From positions 1 to 32,896 of the forward strand of contig CAJQQA010000201.1 in assembly GCA_905480355.1 (NCBI GenBank): DNA of 32,896 nt. The letters run 5' to 3'. Positions within the stretch are counted from its first letter, which is position 1. Each line of letters starts with the position of its first letter. Source of the DNA: an uncultured Flavobacteriales bacterium. GTDB taxonomy: Bacteria; Bacteroidota; Bacteroidia; Flavobacteriales_D; Crocinitomicaceae. The position numbers and the translations under genes were made by a program. The notes below the pieces were generated by a model, which was not told where the DNA came from, ran no database searches, and saw nothing but the letters and a program-made list of their open reading frames with translations. Of this stretch, positions 701-27,369 are shown piece after piece.

Positions 701-3700
701 AGCTGGAACAACTGGAACTGTTGTTGGCTCAATAATAATAGTCTGTGTAACAAAAATGAAGTTTGCACAATCATCGGTTACTCGGTATCTTCTTAGTATT
801 GTCTCTGGACAGCTTAAACCATCTGAAGTGTCATCTTCCCATGCAACTGTTGGTGTCGCTCCATTGTCATTCTCGTCAGTCACAACTGTTGGATCTTGAC
901 CTAATATATCAGCAAAGCACTCAACATCCATTGGCAAAGGATTAGAAGCTGTTGGTGGTACGTCGACAAAAATTGTAACTGTATCGTTAACAATGCACCC
1001 ATCAAAACTAATTTCCAAAAAGTAATCAGTAGTTACACTAGGGGCAACAACCACTTGGCCATTGTCTTGCCCTGGGTTTGAAAAGGCAATAGTCCCTGAA
1101 CCTGCAGCACTCGACCAAGTATAATTAGCCCCTTCTGTCAAAGTTATTGGATCGGCACCAATTGTTACGTTTGTTCCACCGACACAAACTATTTGATCTG
1201 GTCCAGCATCAATAAGCATAGGAACTATTGTTATAGTTAACGGTTCTTCATCATCACAAAATGGAGCAACGGAAAGTACATCGTATACAAAGAGAGAGAT
1301 ACTAGAAGTGATGACATCTCCAGCATTATATTGAGTACCAGTACCTAATGCTCCAGTAAAATACGCTTCATTATTTGTTAAATTTGAACCAGTAATGCTT
1401 GGTAAAACATAATCACCACAAACAATTATATCATTCGGTGGGTCCAAAACGGGAGACAAATCAACTGTAATGCAAATAGTTGTATCATAAAAACAGCCAA
1501 AATTATCTTCAACTTCAAAAACGTAACAGGCAGATCCGGCAATTATTGGCTCAACTGTGATTGGATTTGTTCCAGATACAATTGTAGGATCTGGCAACCA
1601 TGAAGAGTTAACTATAGTTGGTGTAAACGTCGTTGTAGTTGAAAGCAAAGCAGGATCAAAATTGATGTTCCAGCTAAAGATAAATCCATTATCTGAAGCC
1701 AAATTATCTGTAATAATTACCGTCCAGTCACCATTCATCGTACAACCAACTAACCCAGCCATATTATCTTGAGCCTCATATGTGCCAGCCGCTAAAGTTC
1801 CACCAGAGTTCGCTCCCCAAGTACCGTTTGTGGCTGTGGGTGACCAACAATAATCAAAGCCCGTGCCTTGAGCTGCTGGCTGACCATCATTATCAACCGG
1901 AATACCTAAATAAGTACCTCCTCCGCCATTTCCAGGGTAATTCACTAAATCTATTACTTCCCCACTGGGACATTGTATTGCTATATTTAAATCGCCCATA
2001 TAAGAATGCTCCATGTTTAGGCAAATATCAAAAAGATCGTTGATATTGTCTAGAGTTTGTCCAGGCAGGTAACAATCTAAATTTACACTTGCTTGATATG
2101 AAACTCCTGAGCCGTCAGGCAAGGAAAGTGAAGGAAAATTCGGAACTGTACATATAATTTCATACAATACAGGAGTCACAACACCAGTTATGTCAGATGG
2201 GTCTCCAGCGCAAATTGGATCAGGATTAGCGATTGAACCAGCAAAGTTAGGAGTTGTTGAGACATATACCAATTGATCAATATCATTTGCATTAGAACAT
2301 CCTTCTATGTCAGATATTTCTAATTGAATTAAAAAACCACCCTCTACCGGATAATTATAAGAAAAATTTTGGCCCGTTTGTGTTCCTCCATCTCCTGTAA
2401 ACCAGTCAAAAGTTGAAGTCCCATCAGACTGCGTATAACTAAAACCATTATCAGGATATACACCAACACCATTCAATTGTAAATCATCTCCTTGGCAAAG
2501 TCTAATGACTCCATCAGGGTCAGGTGCTGGCGAGAAATTTGCTGTCGCTATAACAGTTTGACACAAGGTAGTGCAAGAAATATCGGCAACCCATCCATCA
2601 TTAGTTATAGAGCCTGAAGATTGAAACCAAAAAGTAACACAGCCAGAAGGATTATTAGCCTGAACAATTCCAGTTAGAGGAGAATCATTCGAATAACAAC
2701 CAAATGTTGGTGCTAAAATATCTAATCCATCATATACACAAAGTACATCACCAGCTACAGTACCTTCAACATCAAATGAAGTAAAATCAAGAACTACAGC
2801 TTGGCCCGGAATTGAAGGACAAATTGTAATTAATTCATCTTCATTATTTCCATAAAAACCTGAAGGGCCTCCTGAATCATAAAAAACATCACCACAAACA
2901 TTAACCGTTCCCCCCTCACTAATATATACACCTACACATGGCGCACATGGCCCACCACAATCAATGTCAATTTCTCCTTGATTCTGAATGCCATCTGAAC
3001 ATGTGGGAGGCGGTGGGACGATACAACTAATAACAGCTTCCCAACCAATATCACTAACACTAATGTCAGACTCAAATACAAATGTCAAACATCCTGAAGA
3101 TGAAGTAACAGTACCTGGCGATAGCGTACCCGTAAATGGGCTACCCGGAATCTGAGCTGATCCGGTATTCGGTCCATCATAAATAAATAAATCATCAAAG
3201 ATATTCTCAATATCAAACATTAAAAAATCAACAACAACTACTTCTCCAGGTGTAGAAGAACATATTGTCATTTCATTCAATTCTCCATTTGAATAATTTG
3301 CCCCATTACCCCCTGAGTCATAGAAAGTACCTGAGCAAGTATTTATTGTACCGCCCGATGAAATCAAAATATCACAAGCAGCACATGGCCCTCCACAATC
3401 AATTCCAGTCTCACCTTGATTCTGAATTCCATCTGAACATGTAGGAGGTGGTGGAGAAATACAACTAATAGCAGCTTCCCAACCAGGAAAATTAGCCGAT
3501 GCATCAGAGTTAAACTCGAAAGTCAAACAACCTGAAGATGAAGTAACTATTCCTGGAGAAGTTGTGCCTGAAAAAGGGCTTCCGGGAATCTGAGTTGACA
3601 AAGTGTTTGGGCCATCATAAATAGATAAATCATCAAAGAAAATCTCAAGCTCAAACATTGTAAAATCAATGACAATTTGATCTCCTGCCACATCCGAGCA

Positions 3701-3889
3701 AAAAGTCATTGTAAATGATTCACCAGAAGAATAGTCTCCAATAGTACCTCCAGAATCATAAAAATTTCCTGAACATGTATTTACAGTTCCTCCATTATCA
3801 ATTGTGTAATCTTGAGAATATGAAATTGACCAACTCAATAAAATAATTAATCCAATAAACCCGATTCTATTTTTTTTTGCAAAATTCAT
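1..3889 (-). CDS. Giant secreted multidomain surface protein, 3' end beyond window (CUB-like x3, Cys-rich linkers, P-domain, PKD/Ig-like, HYR-like repeats)
   Basis: Manual minus-strand translation from ATG at 3889: MNFAKKNRIGFIGLIILLSWSISYSQDYTIDNGGTVNTCSGNFYDSGG... The frame stays open to position 1 (positions 2-13 read FTLP in the same frame). No stop in window, which explains its absence from the ORF track. Signal peptide at N-terminus. Confidence 0.9.
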   Translation of the reverse strand, partial: MNFAKKNRIGFIGLIILLSWSISYSQDYTIDNGGTVNTCSGNFYDSGGTIGDYSSGESFTMTFCSDVAGDQIVIDFTMFELEIFFDDLSIYDGPNTLSTQIPGSPFSGTTSPGIVTSSSGCLTFEFNSDASANFPGWEAAISCISPPPPTCSDGIQNQGETGIDCGGPCAACDILISSGGTINTCSGTFYDSGGNGANYSNGELNEMTICSSTPGEVVVVDFLMFDIENIFDDLFIYDGPNTGSAQIPGSPFTGTLSPGTVTSSSGCLTFVFESDISVSDIGWEAVISCIVPPPPTCSDGIQNQGEIDIDCGGPCAPCVGVYISEGGTVNVCGDVFYDSGGPSGFYGNNEDELITICPSIPGQAVVLDFTSFDVEGTVAGDVLCVYDGLDILAPTFGCYSNDSPLTGIVQANNPSGCVTFWFQSSGSITNDGWVADISCTTLCQTVIATANFSPAPDPDGVIRLCQGDDLQLNGVGVYPDNGFSYTQSDGTSTFDWFTGDGGTQTGQNFSYNYPVEGGFLIQLEISDIEGCSNANDIDQLVYVSTTPNFAGSIANPDPICAGDPSDITGVVTPVLYEIICTVPNFPSLSLPDGSGVSYQASVNLDCYLPGQTLDNINDLFDICLNMEHSYMGDLNIAIQCPSGEVIDLVNYPGNGGGGTYLGIPVDNDGQPAAQGTGFDYCWSPTATNGTWGANSGGTLAAGTYEAQDNMAGLVGCTMNGDWTVIITDNLASDNGFIFSWNINFDPALLSTTTTFTPTIVNSSWLPDPTIVSGTNPITVEPIIAGSACYVFEVEDNFGCFYDTTICITVDLSPVLDPPNDIIVCGDYVLPSITGSNLTNNEAYFTGALGTGTQYNAGDVITSSISLFVYDVLSVAPFCDDEEPLTITIVPMLIDAGPDQIVCVGGTNVTIGADPITLTEGANYTWSSAAGSGTIAFSNPGQDNGQVVVAPSVTTDYFLEISFDGCIVNDTVTIFVDVPPTASNPLPMDVECFADILGQDPTVVTDENDNGATPTVAWEDDTSDGLSCPETILRRYRVTDDCANFIFVTQTIIIEPTTVPVVPADGLSTVNCLVDAQVVPTAPAGIVDVCGNPLTPVVTTPADIACEGDMVYTFTYTDCAGNTADWLYTYTIDIPAFTIPYANDVSVVNCVIDAQVQPADPGVVVDMCGTTLLPVITAPSPTGCTGVGAVWTFTYTDCAGNTVDWTYTYTVTLAPFVIPFADDASTVNCLVDAQVEPIPPGVVNDACGNAIVPVVTTPADIACEGTMTYVFTYTDCAGNTADWTYVYTIDIPAFTLP
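1655..2060 (-). other. Proprotein-convertase P-domain-like module inside the giant protein
   Basis: FDICLNMEHSYMGDLNIAIQCPSGEVIDLVNYPGNGGGTYLGIPVDND...WSPTATNGTWG...LVGCTMNGDWTVIITDNLASDNGFIFSWNINFD matches the P-domain pattern (H.y.gDL.i.l.sP.Gt...L; G.W.l.v.D...dnG.l..w.l.f). Confidence 0.7.
2570..3830 (-). repeat. Three CUB-like modules; first two followed by the linker CSDGIQNQGE(T/I)(G/D)IDCGGPCA(A/P)C
   Basis: NGGTVNTCSG.FYDSGG / F.IYDGPNT.S.QIPGSPF.GT.SPG.VTSSSGCLTF.F.SD....GWEA.ISC repeated. Linker DNA at about 3381 and 2943, period 438 nt (146 aa). The third module is more divergent. Confidence 0.8.
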
Positions 3890-6816: not shown

Positions 6817-7731
6817 TTAATTGTTTTTTTCTGCGTATGCATTAGCTGCTTCTCTCACCCATCTTCCCTCTTCATGTGCTTTAATGTGATGATTAATTCT
6901 ATCATCATTACATGGACCATCACCATTCACAACACTCCAAAACTCATCCCAATCCATTGCGCCAAAGTCATAGTGCTTAGTCTCCTCATTCCATTTCAAA
7001 TCTTTATCTGGAATTGTCAAACCAATTAATTCTGCTTGAGCTACTGTTTTATCAATAAACTTTTGCCTTAGATCATCATTTGACTCAATTTTAATTCCCC
7101 ATTTCATAGCATCACCGCTTCTAGCTGAGTCTTGGTCATGTGGGCCAAACATCATTATCGAAGGCCACCAAAAACGATTCATTGCATCTTGTGCCATTTC
7201 TTTTTGCTCTGGAGAACCGAGTGCCATTTTTGAAATAATCTCATAGCCTTGGCGTTGATGAAAACTTTCTTCTTTACATATTTTAACCATAGCGCGAGCA
7301 TACGGACCGTAAGAAGTTTTTTGCAATGAAACTTGATTCACAATGGCTGCACCATCAACAAGCCATCCAACTGCCCCCATATCTGCCCAATTAAGCGTTG
7401 GATAATTAAAAATACTTGAATACTTTGCTTTTCGAGATTGTAATTCTTCAATGTAAACTGCACGACTTTTACCTAAAGTTTCAGCCGCAGAATATAAATA
7501 TTGTCCATGACCTGCTTCATCTTGTACTTTAGCAAGCAAGATAACTTTAGCTCTCAAACTAGGAGCTCGAGTGATCCAATTCCCTTCTGGCTGCATCCCT
7601 ATGACCTCAGAATGTGCATGCTGCGACATTTGACGTTGTAAATGCTTTCTATAACCATCAGGCATCCAGTCTTTTGGTTCAATTTTTATATTGTTATTTA
7701 TTTTCTCTAAAAATTTATCTAAGTCTGTCAT
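6817..7731 (-). CDS. paaA: 1,2-phenylacetyl-CoA epoxidase catalytic subunit PaaA
   Basis: 304 aa; [36 protein letters not shown]...[15 protein letters not shown] diiron-type motifs. Confidence 0.95.
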
Positions 7732-7882
7732 TGTTAACGATTTTTTGTATTGATTGCAAGTTACGAATAATCTTTAAAAAAAAAGATGACAAAAGTCATT
7801 TGTAACTATTTCCTTAGATTTTTATCTAAGTCTATAAAAGTTCTATTTTTGTCTAAATAAGAATAACAAATAAAAAATATAG
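7732..7882. promoter_or_regulatory. Divergent paaA / paaE intergenic region with two inverted repeats and a Bacteroidota -7-like element
   Basis: ATGAC-AAAA-GTCAT at 7786-7799; CTTAGAT-TTTT-ATCTAAG at 7813-7830; TATTTTTG (fits TAnnTTTG) at 7844-7851 facing paaE. Confidence 0.5.
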
Positions 7883-8932
7883 ATGGATTTTTATAGTCTT
7901 CGAATTAAGGGAATTAAAAAAGAAACAAATGACGCTGTATCGATTACTTTTGATGTGCCAGAAAATTTAACTTCTGATTTTAAATATACCGCAGGACAGT
8001 ATTTAACTCTAGAAGCAACAATTAATAATGAAACAATAAGACGTGCTTATTCGATTTGGAAAGCGCCTTTCGAGAACGAAATATCTGTTTTAATCAAAAA
8101 AATTGAAGGTGGATCTTTTTCAAGTTATGCCAATCTTGAATTAAAAGTTGGCGATGCAATAAATGTTTCCAATCCGCTTGGTGGATTCAAAATATCCTCT
8201 GATGATGAAAAATCAACTACTTTTTTTGCAGCTGGAAGTGGAATTACACCTATTTTATCAATTGTAAAACAACAGCTGTTCGATCATTCATCGAATAGCG
8301 CAACGTTATTTTACGTAAACAAAAATACTGATTCTACAATATTTATGGACGAGATTGATAAATTATCATCAAATTTCCCAAATCAACTAAACGTTTTCCA
8401 TTTATTCACACGAGAAAAAAGTGATAAGAACGAATTCAGTGGCCGAATTAATGAAGCAAAATGTGCTGAACTTCTTGAAGCAGGAGCCTTGAATATTAAT
8501 TCTGATTCATTTTACATTTGTGGGCCAGAAGAAATGATTCTTTCCACTAAAGACTTTTTAATGGAGCATTCTGTAGAAAAGCAGAAAATAAATTTTGAGC
8601 TTTTCACAAGTAATGAACCTGATGAAGTTGATCTTGAATCTCACTTAGATGAAGCAACCGTTCACATTACTATCGACGACGATGAATTTGAGTTTGAATA
8701 TGTGCTTTCAGCATCTAATTCTTTACTAGACGCCGGGAATGAAACAGGACTAGATTTACCCTTTTCATGTAAAGGTGGAGTTTGTTGTACATGCAAAGCA
8801 AAAATAATGGAAGGCTCTGCGATGATGATAAAAAATTATGCCCTTTCTGATGAAGAGGTAGCAGAAGGTTACATCCTGACCTGTCAATCTCACCCTACAA
8901 GTGAAAAACTTGTTATTTCATATGACGAATAA
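7883..8932 (+). CDS. paaE: PaaE-like phenylacetyl-CoA epoxidase reductase, copy 1 (FNR-like + plant-type 2Fe-2S)
   Basis: YTAGQYLTLEATINNETIRRAYSIW, GSGITPILSI, CGPEEMI and LPFSCKGGVCCTCKAKI...CQSHP (Cx4Cx2C...C). Confidence 0.9.
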   Translation: MDFYSLRIKGIKKETNDAVSITFDVPENLTSDFKYTAGQYLTLEATINNETIRRAYSIWKAPFENEISVLIKKIEGGSFSSYANLELKVGDAINVSNPLGGFKISSDDEKSTTFFAAGSGITPILSIVKQQLFDHSSNSATLFYVNKNTDSTIFMDEIDKLSSNFPNQLNVFHLFTREKSDKNEFSGRINEAKCAELLEAGALNINSDSFYICGPEEMILSTKDFLMEHSVEKQKINFELFTSNEPDEVDLESHLDEATVHITIDDDEFEFEYVLSASNSLLDAGNETGLDLPFSCKGGVCCTCKAKIMEGSAMMIKNYALSDEEVAEGYILTCQSHPTSEKLVISYDE

Positions 8933-8950
8933 AAATTAACACATAAAATT

Positions 8951-10024
8951 ATGGCTTTTTTCAAGAAAATATTCGGTGATTCCAACAAAACAAAAACACC
9001 AAAAGGGTTTCATCTGTTAACTGTGGATTCGACAGCAAAGATTGGTGGAGAAACAGTGAAAGTGACTTTCTCTATTCCTGAGGAATTAAAAAGTATTTTT
9101 AATTTCACTCCAGGTCAATACATTAATTTTAGCATTACTTTAAATGGAAAAGAACATCGTCGATCTTATTCAATTTGCAGTGGACCTGACGAAATGCTAT
9201 CAGTTGCCATAAAAAAGGTGAAAGATGGTGTCATTTCAGCTTGGTTCAACAATGAAGTTACCTCTGAAATGAAAATTTTAGCCACTAAACCTGAAGGTAA
9301 TTTCATTCTCCCGGGTGACACTGATAAGATTGTTGCCATTGCAGCTGGAAGTGGAATTACGCCTGTATTATCAATCTTGAAATCAATTGAAAAAAATCAA
9401 GGCACTGCAGCATTATTTTATGGAAATCGTTCGGAGAATGAGATCTTATTTAAATCAGAAATTGATGAACTTTCTTCTACCAAAAGCACTTATTTTTTAA
9501 GCCGGGAAGAAAAAGAAGGGTTTATTTCAGGACGAATATCAAAAGAGAGTTTCACCACATTAATTAAAGCTAATTTGGAAATCTTAAAATCCGATGTATT
9601 CTTTATTTGTGGTCCAGAAAAAATGATTCGAGACATTAGTGAAACTTTAGAATTATTTGGTGTAGCGAAAGACAAAATCAAATTCGAACTTTTCACTACT
9701 CCCGTTTTAACTAAGTCAGATGGACATACTGAGGATACTAATTTTTTAGGAAAGAGTAAAATTAGCATTCTCGTAGACGGCACAACAACTACGTTTGACT
9801 TAGATTCTAAAAAAGTTATTCTTGACAAAGCAATTGATGAAGACATTGACATGCCATATTCATGCAAAGGTGGAGTGTGTAGCTCTTGTAAAGGAAAAGT
9901 ATTGAAAGGTGATGTTTATATGAAAATGAATTATACCTTAACGGACAAAGAAGTAGAGGAAGGATATATTTTAGCATGTCAATCATTCCCAAGAAGTGAA
10001 GAAATTGTCATAACGTATGATTAA
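8951..10024 (+). CDS. PaaE-like reductase, copy 2 (tandem paralog)
   Basis: FTPGQYINFSITLNGKEHRRSYSIC, GSGITPVLSI, CGPEKMI and MPYSCKGGVCSSCKGKV...CQSFP; same architecture as the preceding gene. Confidence 0.88.
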   Translation: MAFFKKIFGDSNKTKTPKGFHLLTVDSTAKIGGETVKVTFSIPEELKSIFNFTPGQYINFSITLNGKEHRRSYSICSGPDEMLSVAIKKVKDGVISAWFNNEVTSEMKILATKPEGNFILPGDTDKIVAIAAGSGITPVLSILKSIEKNQGTAALFYGNRSENEILFKSEIDELSSTKSTYFLSREEKEGFISGRISKESFTTLIKANLEILKSDVFFICGPEKMIRDISETLELFGVAKDKIKFELFTTPVLTKSDGHTEDTNFLGKSKISILVDGTTTTFDLDSKKVILDKAIDEDIDMPYSCKGGVCSSCKGKVLKGDVYMKMNYTLTDKEVEEGYILACQSFPRSEEIVITYD

Positions 10025-11621: not shown

Positions 11622-12620
11622 TTGAGAGTATTACTTTTTTCATTTCTAATCATAGTGAGCTTTCAAGCTCACTCACAAGATATTCATTGGTCACAATTCA
11701 ATGATAATCCTATTTTTCAAAACCCCGCAAATGCTGGACATTTCATAGGAGACTATCGCTTTATTGGTAATTATCGAGATCAATGGAGAAGCGTTACGGT
11801 TCCCTTCTCAACACTTTCACTTTCGAGTGATTCTCGATTAATTAAGTACAATAACATTGGGTATGGGATTTCATTTTTTCATGATGTAGTTGGTGATGGT
11901 CAATTTCGAACAATAGAATTACAAGGTAATGTTTCTTATCATTTAAAACTCACCTCCGATTCGACACATAATATTCGCGTCGGTATGAATTTCGGGTTAA
12001 ATCATCGTCAATTTAACAGTGACCAATTCTTCTTTGACAATCAATTTGACGGGATTAGTTATAACCCAGCACTAAGCAGTGGCGAAACTTTTCAAAGTGA
12101 CAGAAGAAGTAACATGTCCGTCGGCGTTGGCGCTATTTATCATTACTATATAAATGAGCGTTTCAATTTTATTGGAGGTGTTGGCGCATTTAATTTGAAT
12201 CGTCCTGACCAAGGCTTTTTTACCACTGAAATAAAGCGTGAAATACGCACAACCTTTTTCGGAAAAGGAATTTATAAATTGACACCTGATCTTGACCTTG
12301 TACCCGGTATAAATTTATCGCTTCAGGGAAAATACCGTGAGTTTGTAGTTGGCTCTTCAATTAAATATACCTTAGTGAAAAGACTTGGAGAGTATAGAGC
12401 CCTTTATGCTGGTATTTGGTACAGAAATAAAGATGCAGCTTTTATTACTGCTGGCGTTGATTATCAAAGTTGGTTTTTCGGTTTAAGCTACGATATCAAT
12501 TTTTCAAAATTAGTACCTGCCAGTAGAGCAAGAGGAGGAATTGAGATTGCTGTTCGTTATATTATTCACAGATTTAAACCGAAGAAAATTAAACATCGAA
12601 TATGCCCAGATTATATTTAA
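11622..12620 (+). CDS. PorP/SprF family type IX secretion-associated outer-membrane protein
   Basis: Signal peptide ...QAHSQDIHWSQFNDNPIFQNPANAGHFIGDYRFIGNYRDQWRSVTVPFSTLSLSSD, the PorP/SprF signature; TTG start. Confidence 0.9.
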   Translation: MRVLLFSFLIIVSFQAHSQDIHWSQFNDNPIFQNPANAGHFIGDYRFIGNYRDQWRSVTVPFSTLSLSSDSRLIKYNNIGYGISFFHDVVGDGQFRTIELQGNVSYHLKLTSDSTHNIRVGMNFGLNHRQFNSDQFFFDNQFDGISYNPALSSGETFQSDRRSNMSVGVGAIYHYYINERFNFIGGVGAFNLNRPDQGFFTTEIKREIRTTFFGKGIYKLTPDLDLVPGINLSLQGKYREFVVGSSIKYTLVKRLGEYRALYAGIWYRNKDAAFITAGVDYQSWFFGLSYDINFSKLVPASRARGGIEIAVRYIIHRFKPKKIKHRICPDYI

Positions 12621-14839
12621 TACTATTTTCCTTTTTTTTTGTCGTTAATATTAATGCTCAAAACAACTTAAAGAAATACTTGTCTTTCGCAAAAGAGCAA
12701 GCAGATAAAGGTGATTATTATTATGCTCTAGAATACTATAAAAAGGCAATGGAATTGGACTCCAACACCATAGATATATTATGGAATGTTGCAGAAACCC
12801 ATCGTGCATATAAAGACTATCGAAAAGCAGAATTTTACTACGCAAAGGTATATGACAGAGAGGAAGCAAGAATATACCCAAGCAGTCTTTTAAACTGGGG
12901 ACTAATGCAGAAACATAACGGTAAATACGAAGCAGCAGCCTCAACTTTTAAAAAGGCTAAAAAGAAATACTATAAGCAGAAAAAAAGTTATCTCTATAAA
13001 AAAGCTAAACAAGAATTAGCCAGTGTTGTATGGGCACTTTCAAGTGCTATAGACAATACAGATATAATTATTAGTCCTCTGCCTGCCAGTGTGAATACTA
13101 AAAACTCTGAATTTGGACATGGTATTTACAATAAGCAATTGATCTTTTCTAGCTTGAGAGCCGATTCTATTAGCGCTGCAGAAGAGGTATATGGTTCAAG
13201 CTATAGAACATCAATTTATTCCAGTGAAATTGTTGATTTGAAATTCTCTAATTCTGAAAAAATAGTAGACCTGTTTGTTGAAAATTTAAACACGGGAAAT
13301 GGAACTTTTTCGCTGGATGGGAAACGATTTTACTTCAGTAAATGCCAAGAAGACGGGTACAATTATAAATGCAAAATTATGATTGCGAATTATACTGATG
13401 GTCATTGGTCCTACATAGATTCTTTGGGAGAAATAATTAATCAACCGCAAGCAAATACAACAATGCCATGCATTGCTTTAATAGATGGGAAAGAAACGTT
13501 AATTTTCTCATCTGATCGAGAAGGCGGAAAAGGAGGATTAGATATTTATTATTCCGTTATTTCAAATGGAAATCAATACGGAAAGGTAAAAGCAATTAAA
13601 ACAATCAATACACTTGACAATGAAATCACTCCTTGGTGGGACGCTAAAGAACAAGCTTTGTATTTTTCCTCTTCTTGGCACAATAGTTTTGGAGGATATG
13701 ATGTCTTTTCCTCAGCTTTCACTGACAAATTTAACAAACCTATAAATGCTGGACTGCCAGTAAATAGTTCAGCTAATGACATCTACTATTTTGCTGAGGG
13801 TGATACAAGTTATGTTACTTCAAATCGAATTGGTGTAATGTTCAGCAAGAACCCCACCTGTTGCAGCGATATATTTATGCTTATTCCTCCAATAATAGAT
13901 GTTCCACCTTCAAAGGAAGAGACGTTAGCTGACTTAAACAAACGACTGCCTGTTACACTATATTTTCACAATGACATTCCAAATCCTGACTCTTGGGACA
14001 CTGTAACTCCTCAAAGTTATATGGAAACATATGATGACTATACAATTATGATTGGCCGCTATCAAAAAGAATATTCTAAAGGACTCAGCGGAGATAAAGC
14101 TGATTTTGCAAGGCTAGACATTGAAAATTTTTTTATCGAATATGTAGATAAGGGTGTTGCCGATTTACAGTTGTTCCGAGAATTGCTTTTGAAAGAATTA
14201 GATCGAGGAGCTAAAATTAACATTACTGTTAAAGGGTTTGCAAGTCCGCTCGCTAAAACGAATTACAATGTGAACTTAACAAAACGTCGAATTTCCTCTT
14301 TGGTAAACTATATGAGGCGTTTTAATGGAGGCGTTTTTGCTAAGTATTTAGACAATAACGCTCAAAATGGTGGGAAAGTAATATTTTCTCAAGTACCCTT
14401 TGGTGAATATACAGCGAATCAATTAACAAGTGATAATCCAAATGATGTTCAGAACTCAGTTTATTCAAGAAATGCAGCCATTGAGCGAAAGATTGAAATT
14501 CAAAGCGTTAGCTATCTAGAAGATGATAAAGAATTTTCATTGACGACTACAAACCCTGTATTTGATTATGGTGATTCGAAGCGTGGTGATATACTGACCC
14601 ATACGTTTAGAGTTAAGAACAAATCAAATGAAACTATCTCAATTTCTGAATTCAGAATACCCTGCGATTGCACAGTTGCTGAAGCAGAAAAAGGAGAATT
14701 AAAAGCAGGTGAAGAAATGGAGATTACAATGACCGTGGATACTAAGAATTTAATCGGGTTTATGGTTAAATCAATTTACGTCAAGATCGATGCTAGCGAT
14801 GAAGAGTTGAGATTGTATATTTCTTCGGAGATTAAGTGA
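12602..14839 (+). CDS. TPR / PD40 beta-propeller-like / OmpA-family protein with C-terminal DUF1573-like domain
   Basis: TPR-like N-terminus (AKEQADKGDYYYALEYYKKAMELDSNTIDILWNVAETH); PD40-like DGKETLIFSSDREGGKGGLDIYYS; OmpA-like INITVKGFASPLAKTNYNVNLTKRRISSLVNYM; DUF1573-like FDYGDSKRGDILTHTFRVKNKSNETISISEFRIPCDCTVAE. Overlaps the PorP/SprF gene by 19 nt. Confidence 0.85.
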   Translation: MPRLYLILFSFFFVVNINAQNNLKKYLSFAKEQADKGDYYYALEYYKKAMELDSNTIDILWNVAETHRAYKDYRKAEFYYAKVYDREEARIYPSSLLNWGLMQKHNGKYEAAASTFKKAKKKYYKQKKSYLYKKAKQELASVVWALSSAIDNTDIIISPLPASVNTKNSEFGHGIYNKQLIFSSLRADSISAAEEVYGSSYRTSIYSSEIVDLKFSNSEKIVDLFVENLNTGNGTFSLDGKRFYFSKCQEDGYNYKCKIMIANYTDGHWSYIDSLGEIINQPQANTTMPCIALIDGKETLIFSSDREGGKGGLDIYYSVISNGNQYGKVKAIKTINTLDNEITPWWDAKEQALYFSSSWHNSFGGYDVFSSAFTDKFNKPINAGLPVNSSANDIYYFAEGDTSYVTSNRIGVMFSKNPTCCSDIFMLIPPIIDVPPSKEETLADLNKRLPVTLYFHNDIPNPDSWDTVTPQSYMETYDDYTIMIGRYQKEYSKGLSGDKADFARLDIENFFIEYVDKGVADLQLFRELLLKELDRGAKINITVKGFASPLAKTNYNVNLTKRRISSLVNYMRRFNGGVFAKYLDNNAQNGGKVIFSQVPFGEYTANQLTSDNPNDVQNSVYSRNAAIERKIEIQSVSYLEDDKEFSLTTTNPVFDYGDSKRGDILTHTFRVKNKSNETISISEFRIPCDCTVAEAEKGELKAGEEMEITMTVDTKNLIGFMVKSIYVKIDASDEELRLYISSEIK

Positions 14840-18099: not shown

Positions 18100-18120
18100 C
18101 TCTAATAGTGTTAAATAAAA

Positions 18121-18146
18121 CAAGAGAGCTCATAAGAACTCTCTTG
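18121..18146 (-). terminator. Rho-independent terminator of the minus-strand PorV/PorQ-like gene
   Basis: CAAGAGAG / CTCTCTTG perfect 8-bp stem; read on the minus strand it is followed by TTTTATTTAA. Confidence 0.7.
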
Positions 18147-18170
18147 CTATTCAAATATAATAATTTTGTT

Positions 18171-19238
18171 TTACTTTAAGCTTATCGTGGCACCTATTGT
18201 GTGAATGACACCAAAAACCCCTGCGAAACGTGCAGCATATTCAATACCTAATGCACTTTTGTTCTCGCCAACTAATGCATCAACTGAAAAACCTGCAGTA
18301 GGTCCAACAAGTGCATTAGATCTATTTTCTACATCTAATAAATTCTTTTCATACACATAACCTGCTCTAAGATTAAATGCAAAGTTCTCTTGCGTCATCA
18401 TGTAATTAAGTCCAAGTCTAAATTGATCACTTGAAAATGAATTTGCTGTAAATGCAAGTGCGACATTCAATTTGTTCTTTTCACCAAAGATGAAGTCATA
18501 AGAACCTCCAATTGCTAATAATGAAGGCAGCTCATAGGTAGCTGAACGCTGTTCCAATGATACAATCTCACCAGTTTCCACATATGTTGCTTGATTTGCT
18601 AAACCATCACCTTTATAACGCATTACTGGTCCTACATTTTTTAATGTTATACCGAACTTAATTTGGTCTTGCTCACCTGTAACGTATCTAATTCCTGCAT
18701 CAATACCTACTCCTGTAGCTTTTAAATCAGCAATTGACTCAGCGATAACTTTAAAACCAATTCCACCTGAAATAGAACTTGAAAATGCTCTTGCATAACC
18801 AATACTAAAAATATTAGCTCTTGGTGAAAACACACCAATCTGCCCTTCAGGATTTGCTACAGTTGTTACATCAATATCACCAAAATTCATGGATTGAATA
18901 CTGAAAGATAAAACACTAGATTCTGAAACTCTCTGTGCAATACCAAATGCGTTCAGTCCAATATCAGCTGAACCCATCCAATTTGTATGGTTGAATTTGA
19001 TCTGAGTTTTATCTGTATAAGCAAGTCCAGCAATATTTATAAATGAAGCTTCGAGCCCGTTAACACATGCAATACCAGCTCCACCAGAAGCAGCACTTCG
19101 TGCCCAAGGATTTACCAGCATATGTGATGCTCCAGCAGAGCCAACACGATCTTCATTACCTGCATTTACATAGAAGCTTGATATAATGGCTGCTCCAATT
19201 ATAAATCGGGTTTTAATTTTTAAAATAGAATTATTCAT
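18171..19238 (-). CDS. PorV/PorQ family outer-membrane protein
   Basis: MNNSILKIKTRFIIGAAIISSFYVNAGNEDRVGSAGASHMLVNPWARSAASGGAGIACVNGLEASFINIAGLAYTDKTQIKFNHTNWMGSADIGLNAFGIA; FadL/PorV-like beta-barrel pattern. Start trimmed to ATG 19238. Confidence 0.82.
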   Translation of the reverse strand: MNNSILKIKTRFIIGAAIISSFYVNAGNEDRVGSAGASHMLVNPWARSAASGGAGIACVNGLEASFINIAGLAYTDKTQIKFNHTNWMGSADIGLNAFGIAQRVSESSVLSFSIQSMNFGDIDVTTVANPEGQIGVFSPRANIFSIGYARAFSSSISGGIGFKVIAESIADLKATGVGIDAGIRYVTGEQDQIKFGITLKNVGPVMRYKGDGLANQATYVETGEIVSLEQRSATYELPSLLAIGGSYDFIFGEKNKLNVALAFTANSFSSDQFRLGLNYMMTQENFAFNLRAGYVYEKNLLDVENRSNALVGPTAGFSVDALVGENKSALGIEYAARFAGVFGVIHTIGATISLK

Positions 19239-19257
19239 TGTATCTGTTTTATTCTTA

Positions 19258-22200
19258 TTAAATACCTTGTAAATCAATTTGTCTCATTCCTCCGAAGAAT
19301 TTAATAATCACCTCTCCAATTTCAGGAACATCTACATGTATCAAATAGATACCACCTGCAACCGGAATTCCTTTAGAATTATTCAAATCCCAATCCAATG
19401 AAGTCCTTGGACTGTCTTTTTTAAACGTTCGGACCAATTTACCATTAGCACTGTAAATTTTTACAGTACACACTTCAGGAAGATTAGTAATCTTCACACG
19501 CGTGTCTAGACGATTATCCTCATATTGCGAGTAAGCATAATAAGGATTCGGGACAATGTTAATCATATCTAACACCTCTGATAATCTCTCTTGACTACCA
19601 ATTTCTGTTGCCAAATCATCCATACTCCATGAGTACATTGGACGACCATTATTAGGGCCTCCATTTATATCTCCAGCAGTATAAAAATCTTTGTACTCCT
19701 TGTTTACTCGAAGACTTATGGTCGCTTCTGTACTTAAGAGTTCAGCTCCAAAGCCTGAAAATGTTCCTGTAGCTAGAGGATAAACTATCCATGAAAGATT
19801 TCCGTAAGTCTTCGTTTTCTGTGAATTATTATTTGCTTCAATTAGCAACATATCGTTATACAGCTGATTTGTTGCCAAGTTTTCCGCATCGGAAGGCACA
19901 TACGCAGGATAATCATTTCCTTGAAAGTGATTGTTAATGGACTTCTTTTGGTAATTATAGATATACACTGGATGCATACCTCCCAATATTGGATTACCGT
20001 TTGCATCTGAAACTCTTTCTGTTGGATTCCATTTCATATCTGCCCCATTATCAATCGCTAAAAATGAGTTTTCTCCAAACGACATGTAAAGTCTAGCACC
20101 TGATTCTACGTCAATAGCGTAACCAGGGAACCAACCCATTCCAGTATTTCCAGTACCATCATTATTTCCATTCTTATCAACACTTGGACTTTTTCTCATT
20201 TCTCCTGGCTCAGCATTTCCTACATTGAAAGCAGAAACTCTACCTAACTCAATAATTGGACAATAAGTCCACTTAGATTTATCACTCGTCATCACAATGT
20301 CTACACTTGGTAAATATTTTATTGACGCATGCTGTCTCGCTTGAGTTGGAGAAGATAAGTTGTAATAAGCAAGAGGCATATATTCATCTTGGTAACCAAC
20401 TATTTTGTGGGGTGCAACAGACCCTCCAAGTATTTTAGCCCATTTCTTATCATCATCATAACCTATTTCGTCAGGATATGCACAAGTTTCTAAGAAATTT
20501 GCAACATCTGGATCATCATTACACTGAAGTCCACTAATTCCTGCGTCAGTATCAGGCGAAAAAGTTCCTGAACGAATCCAATTTGTTGGATACATAACAT
20601 CATTATCCGTAACACCTCTTAACCATCTTTTCGAACTATCTGCGAATGATAAAGTAGCTTCTAATAAATCTGTAACTTCAGCTTGACTTGCAGCTACACC
20701 ATTCTCAGAACTAATGTGGTATTCTATTTGATTAATTTGAACAGAAACTCCCCAATCAGGAATTATTTGTTCATTTGCTCTTCCAATTGCTAAATCAGAA
20801 GTAATCGAGTCAATAAGTGCTCCTCCTTGAGATTCATATCTGTAAATTACCCAGCTAGCAGTATCTGCAACCGCATTAGAGGCTGTTGTTGAATAGTCTT
20901 TAAACTTACAAACAAAGTATCCATCAGCAACATTCAAAGGATCTACAACTTTCACGTTGATTGGACCTCTACCTGCTTGGTAAGAAGGATTGATTTCGTA
21001 ACCTGTACTAACAATCGAATTAATTGAGGTCTGAGTTAAATCAATTGCATTACCACCATTTCCATGACCATCTAGTCGTGTAATAATTGGACCATCGCCA
21101 TAAGAACTATTTTGAGTTAATCCATTAGACTCAGCAATTGGAGCATGAGGAATAGCCTCAACTGAAGCAATTGCAGCCCCATCATATGCAATTCTTGAAG
21201 AAATATAAGGCTTCTTTTGACCATCTAAAAGTAAAGGGTCGTTAGGATCATAAGGTGAATACTCATTATGTGCATAAGCGATAGCAATAAAGTGGTATCT
21301 CTTATGATTTATCAAATTCTTATTCCCTTGAGCAAACGCATCTTCTTTAACTAAGAAAGAATGCTGTATTCCTTGATTATTTGCATCAACCATTTGAGAA
21401 CCAATGGCAAAACCAAGCGCTTCATCGAAAATAAAATTATCCAAATCAATAATATCATTTTCAATATCACATTGAAAAACCAATCTTGACTTATTCTGAT
21501 CTAAAACATCAGATATAGAAGCATCTTCATCAATTAACTGATAAATTTGATATCCTTCAAATGTGTAAAAACGATCAAGATTAGGATCTACAATATTGAT
21601 TTTATCTTCTTTTTTATAAGCTTCCTGAAAGTTATTAGATGTTCCAGGGTTAGAAAGTGTCAATACCAATTCATTTTCTAGCTCTTGAACTATTAATTTA
21701 GGAGCATAAGGTGGCTCTAATATTTCAAAACAAGAATCAAACAACGCTTGTGCTTTTGTATCCGCCCTTCTCATTGTTTCAACCGAAGCAAAAGCATCAC
21801 CGTCTGAAGCCCTTCCGTATACAATACCTATTGTAATATTATTTACAGCACCTGGCTTCAATGTAAATGGTCCTGCAGATTGAACAAACCGTCTATCTCC
21901 AGCTACATTTGAGTTTCCTGCACCATCAGTATCAACTTCACTCCAATCAAATCCAAGGTCAGTTCCTTGTGTCCCCCAATTTAATGGGTCAGAATCACCA
22001 GGAAATAAGTAATCAGATGGAGTTATAGTAATACCAGGTGTACCAACGGCTCCTGTACCACCATAAAACATTTCTGAACCATCTGCCCAAACACCTTGCA
22101 TGAAATTATAAAACTCATTTGCATTGTTAGGGTCAGAATAAGGATATTGAGCTCCGTTAGTATAGTATGTAAATCTTCGCATTCCGAAACGTTCATTATC

Positions 22201-23553
22201 AATTAAACCATCAGAATATCCAATACCAATACCATTATAAACAATACCAGTATCACTTATTGCTTCATTAACTGTTGGAATGACATCCACACCTAATACA
22301 TCATCAAAATAAGGCCCTACGTTATCTCTACCATCAGCATCTTGGTATGGACCTTCGAAGAAATCACATCCAACAGATGGAGGATTTTCACCGTAACCTA
22401 AATTACCACCATTGTCCTCATCAAAATTATCACCATTATACATGTATCCTAATCCACGTGAAACATCACATCCAGCAAAATCATCACTAAAGTATCCAAC
22501 ATCTGCATCGATATACTGTGAGAAATATGTATCGAACAATGTTTGAGTACCTCTATTAATTAATTCGTAATTGTAAAAAGTCATTCTATTTACTTCATCG
22601 TTTGTAGCAAAAGAAAAAGCTTGTGCACGAATTTCCATACCAATTGGTTCTCCGTTTGTTTCACCGTGAATGTTTCCAACATCATTAAATACCCACCAAT
22701 GCGTTTCATCACCGAACAAAGTGATTCTTCTATCAAAACCACACTCTACATCATCTTTGCCCAAAATATCATCGTACCAAGGGTAATCTCCATCTTCAAC
22801 ATTGTAAAATAAATCTGCACCAGCAGGTCCATTTGGATTATCATAAAAAGGTGCTAAGAAAAAATCTTGATATCTAGAAGCATCCCCATGAGCTGGCCAA
22901 GAGTACAATCTATTCATAACTTCACTACTTGGAGCACTAACATCCGTACAACTTTCTGGAGGTAATACGCCAGCACCACAATCCCACCATGTACTGAATT
23001 GAATAATTTCAGATTTACGAACAGTATAGAATTTATCATATGCTTCACACTGATCTTGATCAATTGTAGCAGATCCAAAATCACGTATTGCATCATCTCC
23101 TACAGGATCAGCGGGATTGTAGGTTCCTATTCCTAATCCAGTAGAACCATTGTTTGATCCTACAGAAAGTGGACCAGCCCAAAAATCTTCATCTGATCTG
23201 AATGTTAATGCAGCAATTTTCAATTGCCCATTCACATCTGTACCACCCATCCAAAGAGCTCCAGCATAAATAACTTTCAAGCCGCTTCCTTTAGGAATCT
23301 CATAAGCAGCGACCCCATTACCACGATCTTGCCACATACTACCACCAGTCTCAAGGAAAGCACTAACATCATTGAATGACATTGTGATTTTACCTGTTGC
23401 AGGAGAACAGTTAGCGCTTTTAACTTGTGAAGCGTCTTTCTGCTTTGTTGGTTTCTGATTCTCTTTTACATTTGTCTTCAAATACGAGAATGCATTGTTA
23501 GAACTCAGTATGAATACTGAACCTAATACTATTGCTATTAATTGCTTTTTCAT
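19258..23553 (-). CDS. Large exported protein with C-terminal T9SS type A / FlgD-Ig-like sorting domain
   Basis: 1431 aa; signal peptide MKKQLIAIVLGSVFILSSNNAFS; C-terminal VKIYSANGKLVRTFKKDSPRTSLDWDLNNSKGIPVAGGIYLIHVDVPEIGEVIIKFFGGMRQIDLQGI. Confidence 0.88.
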   Translation of the reverse strand: MKKQLIAIVLGSVFILSSNNAFSYLKTNVKENQKPTKQKDASQVKSANCSPATGKITMSFNDVSAFLETGGSMWQDRGNGVAAYEIPKGSGLKVIYAGALWMGGTDVNGQLKIAALTFRSDEDFWAGPLSVGSNNGSTGLGIGTYNPADPVGDDAIRDFGSATIDQDQCEAYDKFYTVRKSEIIQFSTWWDCGAGVLPPESCTDVSAPSSEVMNRLYSWPAHGDASRYQDFFLAPFYDNPNGPAGADLFYNVEDGDYPWYDDILGKDDVECGFDRRITLFGDETHWWVFNDVGNIHGETNGEPIGMEIRAQAFSFATNDEVNRMTFYNYELINRGTQTLFDTYFSQYIDADVGYFSDDFAGCDVSRGLGYMYNGDNFDEDNGGNLGYGENPPSVGCDFFEGPYQDADGRDNVGPYFDDVLGVDVIPTVNEAISDTGIVYNGIGIGYSDGLIDNERFGMRRFTYYTNGAQYPYSDPNNANEFYNFMQGVWADGSEMFYGGTGAVGTPGITITPSDYLFPGDSDPLNWGTQGTDLGFDWSEVDTDGAGNSNVAGDRRFVQSAGPFTLKPGAVNNITIGIVYGRASDGDAFASVETMRRADTKAQALFDSCFEILEPPYAPKLIVQELENELVLTLSNPGTSNNFQEAYKKEDKINIVDPNLDRFYTFEGYQIYQLIDEDASISDVLDQNKSRLVFQCDIENDIIDLDNFIFDEALGFAIGSQMVDANNQGIQHSFLVKEDAFAQGNKNLINHKRYHFIAIAYAHNEYSPYDPNDPLLLDGQKKPYISSRIAYDGAAIASVEAIPHAPIAESNGLTQNSSYGDGPIITRLDGHGNGGNAIDLTQTSINSIVSTGYEINPSYQAGRGPINVKVVDPLNVADGYFVCKFKDYSTTASNAVADTASWVIYRYESQGGALIDSITSDLAIGRANEQIIPDWGVSVQINQIEYHISSENGVAASQAEVTDLLEATLSFADSSKRWLRGVTDNDVMYPTNWIRSGTFSPDTDAGISGLQCNDDPDVANFLETCAYPDEIGYDDDKKWAKILGGSVAPHKIVGYQDEYMPLAYYNLSSPTQARQHASIKYLPSVDIVMTSDKSKWTYCPIIELGRVSAFNVGNAEPGEMRKSPSVDKNGNNDGTGNTGMGWFPGYAIDVESGARLYMSFGENSFLAIDNGADMKWNPTERVSDANGNPILGGMHPVYIYNYQKKSINNHFQGNDYPAYVPSDAENLATNQLYNDMLLIEANNNSQKTKTYGNLSWIVYPLATGTFSGFGAELLSTEATISLRVNKEYKDFYTAGDINGGPNNGRPMYSWSMDDLATEIGSQERLSEVLDMINIVPNPYYAYSQYEDNRLDTRVKITNLPEVCTVKIYSANGKLVRTFKKDSPRTSLDWDLNNSKGIPVAGGIYLIHVDVPEIGEVIIKFFGGMRQIDLQGI

Positions 23554-23574
23554 AATGTCTTTCTTAATTATGAT

Positions 23575-26500
23575 TTAAAAATCAAATTTAACACCTAATC
23601 TAATCGTTCTTGGTGCACTAATATTAAAAGGATTTTGCACCTTCAAGGTGTAATAATCTCTAAACGACTGTTCATCTACTTGATTTTGAATCGAAGTCTG
23701 ACTAGCTGCAGCTGCCAAATAACCGTCATCATCAGAATTACCAGTAGCTCTATAAACACCAAGAACATTTTCTTGATTCAAGATATTAGTAACTCTAACA
23801 TAAACGTTTAAACTAGTTGCTTTTTTCTTATCTCCCTTTCCAATTTCCAAATCGAAATTTCTATCCACTTGAAGATCTAATCTATATGTCCAAGGTAAAC
23901 GAGAACCATTTGTTGTTCCTGTTAAACCTGAAGTTTGAGGAGTAAATGACCCCTGATCTGTAATATTAATTTGTTGAGAATAAGGTGACCCTGAACCGAT
24001 ATTCGAAACAACATTCAATCCCGTATTTTGTAGTACTTTGAAATCTCCAATTAAAGGACCATTATAATCCTTCCCGTTTCCATATCTATAATCCATCGTT
24101 ATGTTAATTGCATGACGCTGATCAAAGCTATATGGAAAAATAGCTCTTAAGTTTGGCAGGCCAGCATTGATAATTCCGGCTGCAGAAGTTGCACTTGAAC
24201 CAGTACCATCAGCAAACTGCAATGTATAATTGGCAGTCATTCTAAGATTCCCTGTTCTTCTTAAATCATAAGCAATAGTTAAACCTTTAACGGTTCCAAA
24301 ATCTCTATTCCCAAAAGTACTGTAAGTACGAGGAAAAGCTTCAGTAACATTCATCAGTTGTACATTATCTCTTTGTTCTCTGTAGAATGCTGAAATTTTA
24401 AGTGATGAAGTTTTGGTAAGTACTTGTTGAAATCCTAATTCATAATCAATTGTCTTCTCTGGCTTCAAATTAGAGTTATTAATTGTCGAACTTGTTGAAG
24501 AAATAAATTGATACTGAGCTGGATCAAAACGAACACCAGAAGTTGGACGCTTTGTTAACACATCATAATGAGCAAAGAAAGAAGCTTCATCAGATACAGG
24601 GAATGAAAAAGAAACACGTGGCATAATACTCACTTGCGCTTCATAATCTTCAAAGATATCAGCTTTTATATCATTCTTATTATCAGGATCAGTCAAGTAA
24701 GGTGCAATTCCTTCAGGACCTCTTAATAATCTTGGATCAGTAACTTCAATTCCATTTGCATCAAACCAAACATCTCCATTTCTATAACCGTTAATGGCAT
24801 TTGGACTGTCAACATTATCTACATATACGATATAGTCAGATCCCATAGAAGTAGGGATGTTAATCCAATTTAACGATGGGTTATCAGCAAGTACAGCTTT
24901 GGTTTCGTCTACAGTTCTTGCAGTACTGAGAAGAAACTTATCCTTAAGTACTGGCTGATTAGCATCAAATACATCAACACGAACACCAACATTAAATACT
25001 ATATCACGGAAAGAAAACTTATCCATTATATATCCTGCAATATAAGTTGGTTGGTATGCTCCTACAAATCTTTTATAGTTTCCATTTTCATCAAACTCCT
25101 CAAAATAATTATTGATATCTGTTTGACCTTTTACTTTCTCTCCAGTATGATCGTAACCCCAATATGAAACATAAGAGCTACCACTATTTAATAACTCATC
25201 TGGAGAAAACATATCTAATGTAAAGATGTTAGGATCGTATTGATCAATATTCAGATATTCCTCATCTGCCACACCTGTTGAAATCAATCCATTCTCGTTA
25301 AGGTATTGTCTTAAATTATAATCAAAAAATGATTGTTGATCATTGTTTTCAGCACCACCATATATTCCAGTACCACTTTCACTAGCATATCCCAAATTCA
25401 AAGGCTCATAACTTGTGAAAATAACACCTTGTTCAGCATTGAAAGTTAAAGTTGGTGTGCTTAAATCAATTTGCTGTAAATGTGAATTTGTCAACTGACG
25501 TGCCAATGTCCACAATGAAATTGGCCCATTCGCGCCAGCAGTCCATCCTCTATCATAACGCTGCTCATATTCAAAACCTAATGATATCGAATGATCACCG
25601 ATATTTACAGACCCCGCACCAGAAACTCTAATCTGATCAGTTTGTGCTTTTTGGAAATAATTATATGGTGAACCAATATTGCTCCAAATACTATAAATTG
25701 ATTGAGGACCATCGCCATTTCTCAATCCGTTACCTTGAATTATTTGGTCAAAATTTCTGTAGTGAATTTCGTTTTGCCATGCAGCTTCTGGAGAATATAA
25801 ATTGAAATATTGTTCAGTTTGAGCTGCAAGTTGTGGATTTGCATCTGATGGTGTAAACGTCACACCAACAACTGGAGGAATTACATCTTGCACTGGGCCA
25901 TCATTTGAAATGCCCGCGTATGTTCTCTCTCTTTCTAATTCAAATGAACCTACGTGCCCATAATTAAACAAGTTGTATTCATGCTTAGGGTCAAATTGAT
26001 TTCTAATTGTCTTAGAGTAATCAACCATCAAAGAGTAAAAAGCACTTTTAATTTTAGAGCTACTTCCTTCTGTAGAGTTTGAAAAACGTTGTGTTACTCT
26101 TCCGTAGACTCTGTAATCTGTACTTTTATAAGATCCGAAATTTGAGAAATTAAATAAAGAACCTGTTCTGTTATAAATGTTACCCCAGGAATAATTGTAT
26201 GAACCACCAAACGTAACATTTACAGATGGGCCTGTATTAACATCAATTTTACCTTGAGCTGAAATAGAAGATGCAGCAGCATTCATTCTCCAATCGACAT
26301 TTTCGAAATCATCTTCTTTTAAATATAATGCACTGTAAGTAGACCCAAAACCACTTGCATTTGGTCTTAATGGATTTTCTAGTATCTCATCTCTAACATC
26401 TTTCTTAATTCGAGATGAACCGCCAGCTAATGGTCTACTATCTAATTGTGATGTATAGTTAGCCGAAAGTAAAAAGCCTAATCTTGGCTTCGTCTTTTTA

Positions 26501-27369
26501 CCTGTTGAATCTTTTTGCATCCATAATGGACCTGAAAACAAACCTTCCACTAGATTGTAAGAATATTTATCTAATCCTATTACTTTACCATCATAACCAT
26601 CAGGATCACTTCCTTTGAAGTAGAATCCGGAAGAAACTGCTTCAATAGAACCAAAATACTTTGATGATGGACCTCTTGTGGTAATAGATATAATACCACC
26701 AGTTGCATCTCCGTAATTTGCAGGAAGACCACCAGTAATAACTGACACTTCTTCAATTGCTGATTTCGGAAGACTTGATGACCCTCTGACCTTAATACCA
26801 TCAATGTAAAAGTATGTTGCATCTGAACGAGAACCTCTAATACTAATTGCACCTGACCCTTCTGACTTATTTACCCCACCAACTGTACCAGCAACATCAG
26901 CAGCTGAACGAACTGGAAGACGCGCAATATCTTCTCTACCAATTGTAGCTCCAGAAGCTCCACCATCACGATCAATCAATGGAATCTTGTAAGCGATAAC
27001 AGTTACCTCTTCAACATCTTGAACATCTTTTGCTTTGCCAATTGCTAAATCATATAAGAATGTAATCTTGTCTGAGCTCACTTTAACTCCTGTTAATGAG
27101 AGTGGCTTATAACCTTCCGTTTCATTTCTCACTTCAACGTCATAAGTCCCAGCAGGAATAGAATTGATTTGGAAGTTTCCATCAAAATCTGTATTCGCTC
27201 CACCTTTAACTTGACCCTCTGTCTTAAGAATTACTTTTGTAAAAGGAATTGGTTGCTTCGTGTCGGAGTCAGATACAGTACCTTTTATAGTACCAAGACC
27301 TGACTGAGAAAAACCATAAGAAAGTGTGAGTAAGATACTTACAAGTAATAAATTTAGTTTCAATAACAT
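23575..27369 (-). CDS. TonB-dependent receptor with N-terminal carboxypeptidase-regulatory-like domain
   Basis: GTIKGTVSDSDTKQPIPFTKVILKTEGQVKGGANTDFDGNFQINSIPAGTYDVEV; plug SGAISIRGSRSDATYFYIDGIKVRGSSSLPKSAIEEVSVITGGLPANYGDATGGIISI; barrel ending TIRLGVKFDF. Confidence 0.93.
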   Translation of the reverse strand: MLLKLNLLLVSILLTLSYGFSQSGLGTIKGTVSDSDTKQPIPFTKVILKTEGQVKGGANTDFDGNFQINSIPAGTYDVEVRNETEGYKPLSLTGVKVSSDKITFLYDLAIGKAKDVQDVEEVTVIAYKIPLIDRDGGASGATIGREDIARLPVRSAADVAGTVGGVNKSEGSGAISIRGSRSDATYFYIDGIKVRGSSSLPKSAIEEVSVITGGLPANYGDATGGIISITTRGPSSKYFGSIEAVSSGFYFKGSDPDGYDGKVIGLDKYSYNLVEGLFSGPLWMQKDSTGKKTKPRLGFLLSANYTSQLDSRPLAGGSSRIKKDVRDEILENPLRPNASGFGSTYSALYLKEDDFENVDWRMNAAASSISAQGKIDVNTGPSVNVTFGGSYNYSWGNIYNRTGSLFNFSNFGSYKSTDYRVYGRVTQRFSNSTEGSSSKIKSAFYSLMVDYSKTIRNQFDPKHEYNLFNYGHVGSFELERERTYAGISNDGPVQDVIPPVVGVTFTPSDANPQLAAQTEQYFNLYSPEAAWQNEIHYRNFDQIIQGNGLRNGDGPQSIYSIWSNIGSPYNYFQKAQTDQIRVSGAGSVNIGDHSISLGFEYEQRYDRGWTAGANGPISLWTLARQLTNSHLQQIDLSTPTLTFNAEQGVIFTSYEPLNLGYASESGTGIYGGAENNDQQSFFDYNLRQYLNENGLISTGVADEEYLNIDQYDPNIFTLDMFSPDELLNSGSSYVSYWGYDHTGEKVKGQTDINNYFEEFDENGNYKRFVGAYQPTYIAGYIMDKFSFRDIVFNVGVRVDVFDANQPVLKDKFLLSTARTVDETKAVLADNPSLNWINIPTSMGSDYIVYVDNVDSPNAINGYRNGDVWFDANGIEVTDPRLLRGPEGIAPYLTDPDNKNDIKADIFEDYEAQVSIMPRVSFSFPVSDEASFFAHYDVLTKRPTSGVRFDPAQYQFISSTSSTINNSNLKPEKTIDYELGFQQVLTKTSSLKISAFYREQRDNVQLMNVTEAFPRTYSTFGNRDFGTVKGLTIAYDLRRTGNLRMTANYTLQFADGTGSSATSAAGIINAGLPNLRAIFPYSFDQRHAINITMDYRYGNGKDYNGPLIGDFKVLQNTGLNVVSNIGSGSPYSQQINITDQGSFTPQTSGLTGTTNGSRLPWTYRLDLQVDRNFDLEIGKGDKKKATSLNVYVRVTNILNQENVLGVYRATGNSDDDGYLAAAASQTSIQNQVDEQSFRDYYTLKVQNPFNISAPRTIRLGVKFDF

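Follow-up and report, generated by a model that had tools for sequence, protein, structure and literature searches.

Genes for a TonB receptor, a large and probably T9SS-exported cargo and an outer-membrane barrel of the PorV family recur side by side across the Bacteroidota, and the cargo is found only in genomes that possess the T9SS translocon SprA. The barrel belongs to a distinct clade, the putative C-terminal sorting domain (CTD) of the cargo is PorZ-like with a fixed tail, and the three proteins diverge together. We propose that the trio forms one outer-membrane unit. The cargo would be exported by Sec and then through SprA, and its CTD, left uncleaved by PorU, would be received from SprA and retained by the trio barrel, as in PorQ-PorZ or the SprF/PorP-type B cargos. 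The surface-exposed passenger would then sit beside the co-encoded TonB receptor, where it would capture or gate substrate as SusD does for SusC. The binding of the CTD to the barrel, its retention, the contact of the cargo with the receptor and uptake are inferences from these results. We give the whole chain, from T9SS export through a barrel-held CTD to substrate capture for the receptor, about an even chance of being right. That the trio pairs a T9SS cargo with a PorV-clade anchor specific to it is more probable than this, and the substrate-capture role of the passenger is less so. The literature that we searched (preprints and most subscription papers excluded) contained no description of the trio.

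Layout and conservation of the trio

The window, by which we mean the whole 32,896-nt stretch analysed, corresponds to contig C201; the genome to which it belongs measures 2.6 Mb in 254 contigs and is 86% complete. A preliminary description of this DNA had reported three co-directional genes separated by about 20 nt and ending at a strong terminator, and this layout was confirmed: the open reading frames lie at the same positions, the gaps are 21 nt (receptor/cargo) and 19 nt (cargo/barrel), and the terminator hairpin has a 13-bp stem and a T-rich tail (−21.5 kcal/mol, z = −5.8 relative to shuffled sequences; Table 1). Beyond the terminator lie greA and a HIT-family gene, and the receptor gene's other neighbour encodes a 4'-phosphopantetheinyl transferase. 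With these flanks, and no dedicated catabolic neighbours seen in them, a polysaccharide utilisation locus was rejected. The Bacteroidota promoter pattern TTTG-N-TANNTTTG was not found upstream of the receptor, and its window-wide count was at chance level.

Table 1. Features of the trio locus, in window coordinates.
Feature	Position	Strand	Description
TonB receptor gene	23575-27369	-	1264 aa; CarboxypepD_reg domain, plug, large beta-barrel
Cargo gene	19258-23553	-	1431 aa; hydrophobic signal at the N-terminus, large passenger, putative Ig-like sorting domain at the C-terminus
PorV/PorQ-family barrel gene	18171-19238	-	355 aa from ATG; 14-strand outer-membrane barrel
Passenger core	21154-23427	-	Cargo residues ~43-800
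CTD	19261-19596	-	Cargo residues ~1320-1431; closest match, PorZ CTD
Fixed 13-residue cargo tail	19261-19299	-	After conserved Lys: K-FFGGMRQIDLQGI
Intrinsic terminator	18119-18148	-	3' of the trio

Elsewhere in the window, positions 11622-14839 (+) hold a second T9SS-type barrel pair with no obvious adjoining type B cargo. It consists of a PorP/SprF-family gene (TIGR03519, 163.5 bits) and, after it, a TPR/PD40/DUF1573 gene that matches PorE below the threshold (110.9 of 600 bits); an ECF sigma factor gene lies ahead of the pair. Positions 6817-10024 encode the phenylacetyl-CoA epoxidase subunit PaaA (-) and, in tandem, two PaaE-like reductases (+; 346.6 and 304.9 bits, cut-off 420.8). An incomplete gene (2-3889, -), 1296 aa or longer, runs off the contig end; its product has repeats that are CUB-like by eye, and looks like another large surface protein.

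To survey the trio in other genomes, we retrieved loci by cargo similarity alone, so that the flanks are unbiased; most sequences were metagenome-assembled genomes, and some loci are non-independent since they come from related genomes. The labels of the relatives were mostly those of Crocinitomicaceae or Flavobacteriales metagenome-assembled genomes, and the named isolates Crocinitomix algicola and C. catalasitica (loci L123 and L134) have a trio. In the near set (the same order and its neighbours; 107 distinct cargos after removal of duplicates), a receptor lay upstream of 82/103 distinct cargos and a barrel downstream of 73/92, with both present for 68 of the 88 cargos whose loci extended far enough in both directions. 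In the distant set, drawn mostly from other classes and with passengers alignable only in part, receptor, barrel and both together were each found at 35/38 loci. Median gaps within the trio were 20-32 nt across the phylum. The recurrence of this gene order with short gaps is more than chance. The preliminary description had named rare co-occurrence of the three genes as grounds for refuting its reading; our survey did not bear this out, since they co-occur throughout the phylum. Where a near cargo had no partners, it was in most cases a second paralog whose genome possessed a trio as well. GreA was encoded no more than 4 kb away from the trio at 75/77 near loci versus 6/35 distant ones, all six of the latter from the window's family or class; inside the window's class, therefore, the trio locus keeps its place. 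Sampled flanks of distant trios (dehydrogenase, diacylglycerol kinase, aminotransferase) gave no functional clue.

At three loci outside the window's class, the receptor gene is immediately preceded by a gene for a protein of about 250 aa (L219:4648-5415, L235:14885-15637 and L241:3076-3798), which matches DUF4397 in L241 and nothing in Pfam in L219 or L235; it is a possible fourth member of the trio. Loci L250, L260 and L274 show a variant order in which the receptor adjoins the barrel and the CTD protein is two genes off.

In one sample of 297 genomes with a completeness of 90% or more (the genome of the window comes on top of those drawn), 159 had a match to the cargo profile and every one of these was SprA-positive, whereas none of the 69 SprA-negative genomes had one (Fisher p = 5e-29). 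At E < 1e-10, 140 genomes remained; the weaker matches probably reflect the CTD only. PorU was present in 43/43 trio genomes tested. A further 69 SprA-positive genomes had no cargo, which makes the trio an accessory of the T9SS and not a core part. One SprA match (genome G137, C7:260525-263974) lies inside an open frame of 6523 aa, the usual length being 2300-2700.

Three distant genomes held 12, 9 and 7 complete trios among the loci retrieved. Within these genomes, tree distances were correlated between receptor and passenger (r = 0.95), receptor and barrel (0.88), passenger and barrel (0.83) and CTD and barrel (0.79), and 0/2000 permutations reached the observed correlations. Such co-divergence would fit inheritance and duplication of the trio as an entire unit, in the manner of SusCD pairs; linkage and joint duplication alone could suffice to produce it.

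The barrel and the cargo CTD

The preliminary description had called the third protein PorV/PorQ-like. This held for the broad family (PorV_fam NF033709, 141.5 bits, cut-off 90) and for the fold, and the clade proved separate from PorV, PorQ and PorV2. By profile, the nearest solved structure was PorV (6h3i, E = 7e-27); PorV also took the first two places in the fold search (8gl6, 6h3i), led by the PorV of the RemA-CTD-bound translocon and followed by FadL-family transporters. Narrower identities were rejected: PorV (NF033710, 75 of 250 bits; outside the PorV clade, support 100), PorQ (NF033711, 77 of 220 bits; outside the PorQ clade, support 99) and PorP/SprF (TIGR03519, 23.4 bits, cut-off 90.6). 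In a tree of 115 proteins, PorV, PorQ and PorV2 were each monophyletic (support 100, 99 and 100), and trio barrels of the window type, drawn from the whole phylum, formed one clade (support 99), with only L237 of the distant ones outside it. Most extra barrel paralogs of the three multi-copy genomes made up a second group in the tree. The window's genome also encodes a canonical PorV (C159), a true PorQ (303 bits) and another PorV-family protein (C118) that corresponds to PorV2 in relatives. In 20 distant genomes, the three multi-copy ones among them, the trio barrel profile, which also reaches PorV and PorQ, had 9-29 matches each. We found no assigned role for PorV-family barrels beyond PorV and PorQ in the literature searched.

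The CTD of the window cargo scored highest against the PorZ C-terminus (31.6 bits), followed by FlgD_ig (19.5) and TIGR04183 (18.5; cut-off 23), all of them below cut-off. For 32 cargo relatives, the corresponding profiles matched 24 (PorZ), 9 (TIGR04183) and 4 (PorU), and the sole PDB match was PorZ (5m11, E = 0.009), over the CTD. Both PorZ and PorU retain the CTD, and they dock on PorQ and PorV, respectively (PMC10202324, PMC8545088). We rejected a type A CTD (PF18962/TIGR04183) for the window cargo, with TIGR04183 short of its cut-off and no PF18962 match, and a type B CTD with an SprF shuttle, with no TIGR04131 match in the window cargo or its 32 relatives at E ≤ 0.001. Two of the 32 cargo-family members, orphan L124 among them, matched PF18962 at E ≤ 0.01. 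In 104/105 distinct trio cargos, a K (R once) at position −14 precedes the tail, which ends in I, L, F, Y or T, a loose pattern that also occurs in 53/504 random long ORFs. The exception, L237, is also the distant locus whose barrel falls outside the window-type clade.

A natural exchange of CTDs is seen among the relatives. Six of them (L055, L057, L059, L062, L068 and L071) and the full-length L124 share the passenger and carry an ordinary type A (PF18962) CTD, and none of the seven has a PorV-like neighbour (Fisher p = 9e-6, a value that includes near-set duplicates and assumes the other cargos to be non-PF18962, as checked in a sample). Thus, the barrel is tied to the CTD and not to the passenger. 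Many genomes also carry full-length orphan cargos that have the trio tail and no adjoining PorV-like gene. Their CTDs are 58-88% identical to that of the trio cargo in the same genome, mostly more than the N-terminal halves of the passengers are, and such identity suggests that these orphans may use the trio barrel in trans; orphan type B cargos have one SprF-like shuttle in common (PMC12618676). The idea, put forward in the preliminary description, of a barrel dedicated to its cargo is therefore supported in part: the separate clade, the distinctive CTD, the co-divergence and the 0/7 count argue for it, and the many same-tail orphans suggest that "dedicated" may be too strict.

At L052 the barrel gene continues the reading frame of the cargo gene, which allowed us to model CTD, gap and barrel as a natural read-through chain (AlphaFold2). 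The model had a mean pLDDT of 85.6 and a pTM of 0.82, with a disordered linker and a tail of low confidence (~62). Set against our own estimates of the pTM with the CTD unplaced (~0.69) and well placed (~0.87), the predicted placement of the CTD on the barrel looks fairly confident, as judged from pTM for the cognate pair only.

Passenger, receptor and alternative explanations

A family search with the 1431-aa cargo gave matches confined to the C-terminal ~110 residues, all below cut-off. The passenger core carries the motifs GALWMGG...NGQLK, ETHWWVFNDVGNIH and DDFAGCDVSRGLGY, and is partly common to distant trio cargos and to relatives of 530-640 aa. In our model of residues 24-1200 the passenger folds well (mean pLDDT 84.3, pTM 0.74). 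The best matches in the fold search were carbohydrate-active enzymes, mostly of GH94/GH116 type and galactose mutarotase (best E = 6e-4, TM ≤ 0.23); the search returned no recognised substrate-binding fold. These matches to the modelled passenger give a weak hint that the substrate may be a glycan. In genome G015, a trio cargo and an orphan cargo (L038/L039) share 491/497 residues (99%) in a block that starts at residue 801 and stops 110 residues before the end, and are 57% and 71% identical on either side of it, a pattern that points to recent gene conversion between the paralogs.

The window receptor matched CarboxypepD_reg and Plug profiles. As a single sequence it had no match in the PDB; as a profile it matched SusC-type and siderophore receptors across the N-terminal and plug domains. 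We rejected a SusC/SusD locus in the window, where no SusD-like gene adjoins the receptor and the receptor does not match the SusC model TIGR04056. That model matched 11/22 trio receptors at E ≤ 1e-3.

Our reading has three competitors. Cargo and barrel could be a secretion and anchoring pair like SprB-SprF, the cargo being an adhesin or surface-layer protein and the receptor co-regulated with them without being a physical partner. Known type B CTD/SprF pairs work in this way (PMC12618676, PMC9143113), and orphan cargos without a receptor exist. However, the receptor accompanies the cargo with the same constancy as the barrel does, and its co-divergence with the passenger is the strongest of all, so we consider such a pair unlikely, while regarding it as the most serious of the three. 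The receptor could instead act outward and aid export or assembly of the cargo, as the TonB-dependent transporter Oar does for PopC in Myxococcus xanthus. Trio receptors do have the Oar-type N-terminal architecture, CarboxypepD_reg followed by a plug, but this architecture dominates the TonB receptors of Bacteroidota generally (PMC6434023), and a cargo with a T9SS-type CTD, found only with SprA, already has an export route at hand; an outward role seems to us quite improbable.

Finally, the barrel could be a FadL-type channel for small hydrophobic molecules, leaving the cargo to the canonical PorV. The rank of FadL-family transporters just after PorV in the fold search and the presence of a canonical PorV in the window's genome are compatible with such a channel. 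Against it, PorV supplies both leading fold matches and clearly the best profile match, and the relatives with type A CTDs, which are known PorV clients, have no adjoining barrel gene. We find a channel as doubtful as an outward-acting receptor.

A broader version of the outer-membrane unit proposed here is possible, though we would sooner bet against it than for it. The trio would represent a third mode of T9SS cargo assignment, in which CTDs with a 13-residue tail stay uncleaved on cognate PorV-clade barrels and mount giant substrate-binding proteins on TonB receptors throughout the Bacteroidota. Such a system would be an analogue of SusCD without a lipoprotein, with independent multiplication in other classes of the phylum. 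If the model holds, PorV-family barrels beyond PorV and PorQ would be cargo-specific anchors, the T9SS and TonB-dependent uptake would be joined in one unit, and many unannotated giant surface proteins of environmental Bacteroidota would gain a testable role.

Comparison with known systems

In the T9SS attachment complex of Porphyromonas gingivalis, where it acts with PorU-PorV, the PorZ-PorQ pair offers a T9SS-exported surface protein that keeps its CTD on a PorV-family barrel, and the trio CTD scores best against the CTD of PorZ. PorZ itself is a beta-propeller that delivers A-LPS to PorU, whereas the trio passenger is unrelated. The trio further differs in that its barrel lies outside the PorQ clade, a TonB receptor belongs to the gene unit, and the genome's own PorQ is separate. 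Type B CTD cargos with PorP/SprF, such as SprB-SprF, resemble the trio in gene order, a large cargo gene being followed by that of its own 14-strand shuttle or anchor barrel (a putative one in the trio), and in having orphan cargos elsewhere in the genome. In the trio, however, the barrel is of the PorV family, the CTD is not TIGR04131, and a TonB receptor precedes the cargo.

With SusC/SusD the trio shares a CarboxypepD_reg TonB receptor beside an exclusively paired large protein, probably at the cell surface in the trio, and the occurrence of many paralogous sets per genome. In contrast to SusC/SusD, the partner is a T9SS-type protein and not a lipoprotein, a PorV-like barrel is added, and there is no SusD. 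By analogy, the trio seems to be related in kind to the nutrient-uptake pairs of SusC/SusD, as a form that the literature searched does not describe.
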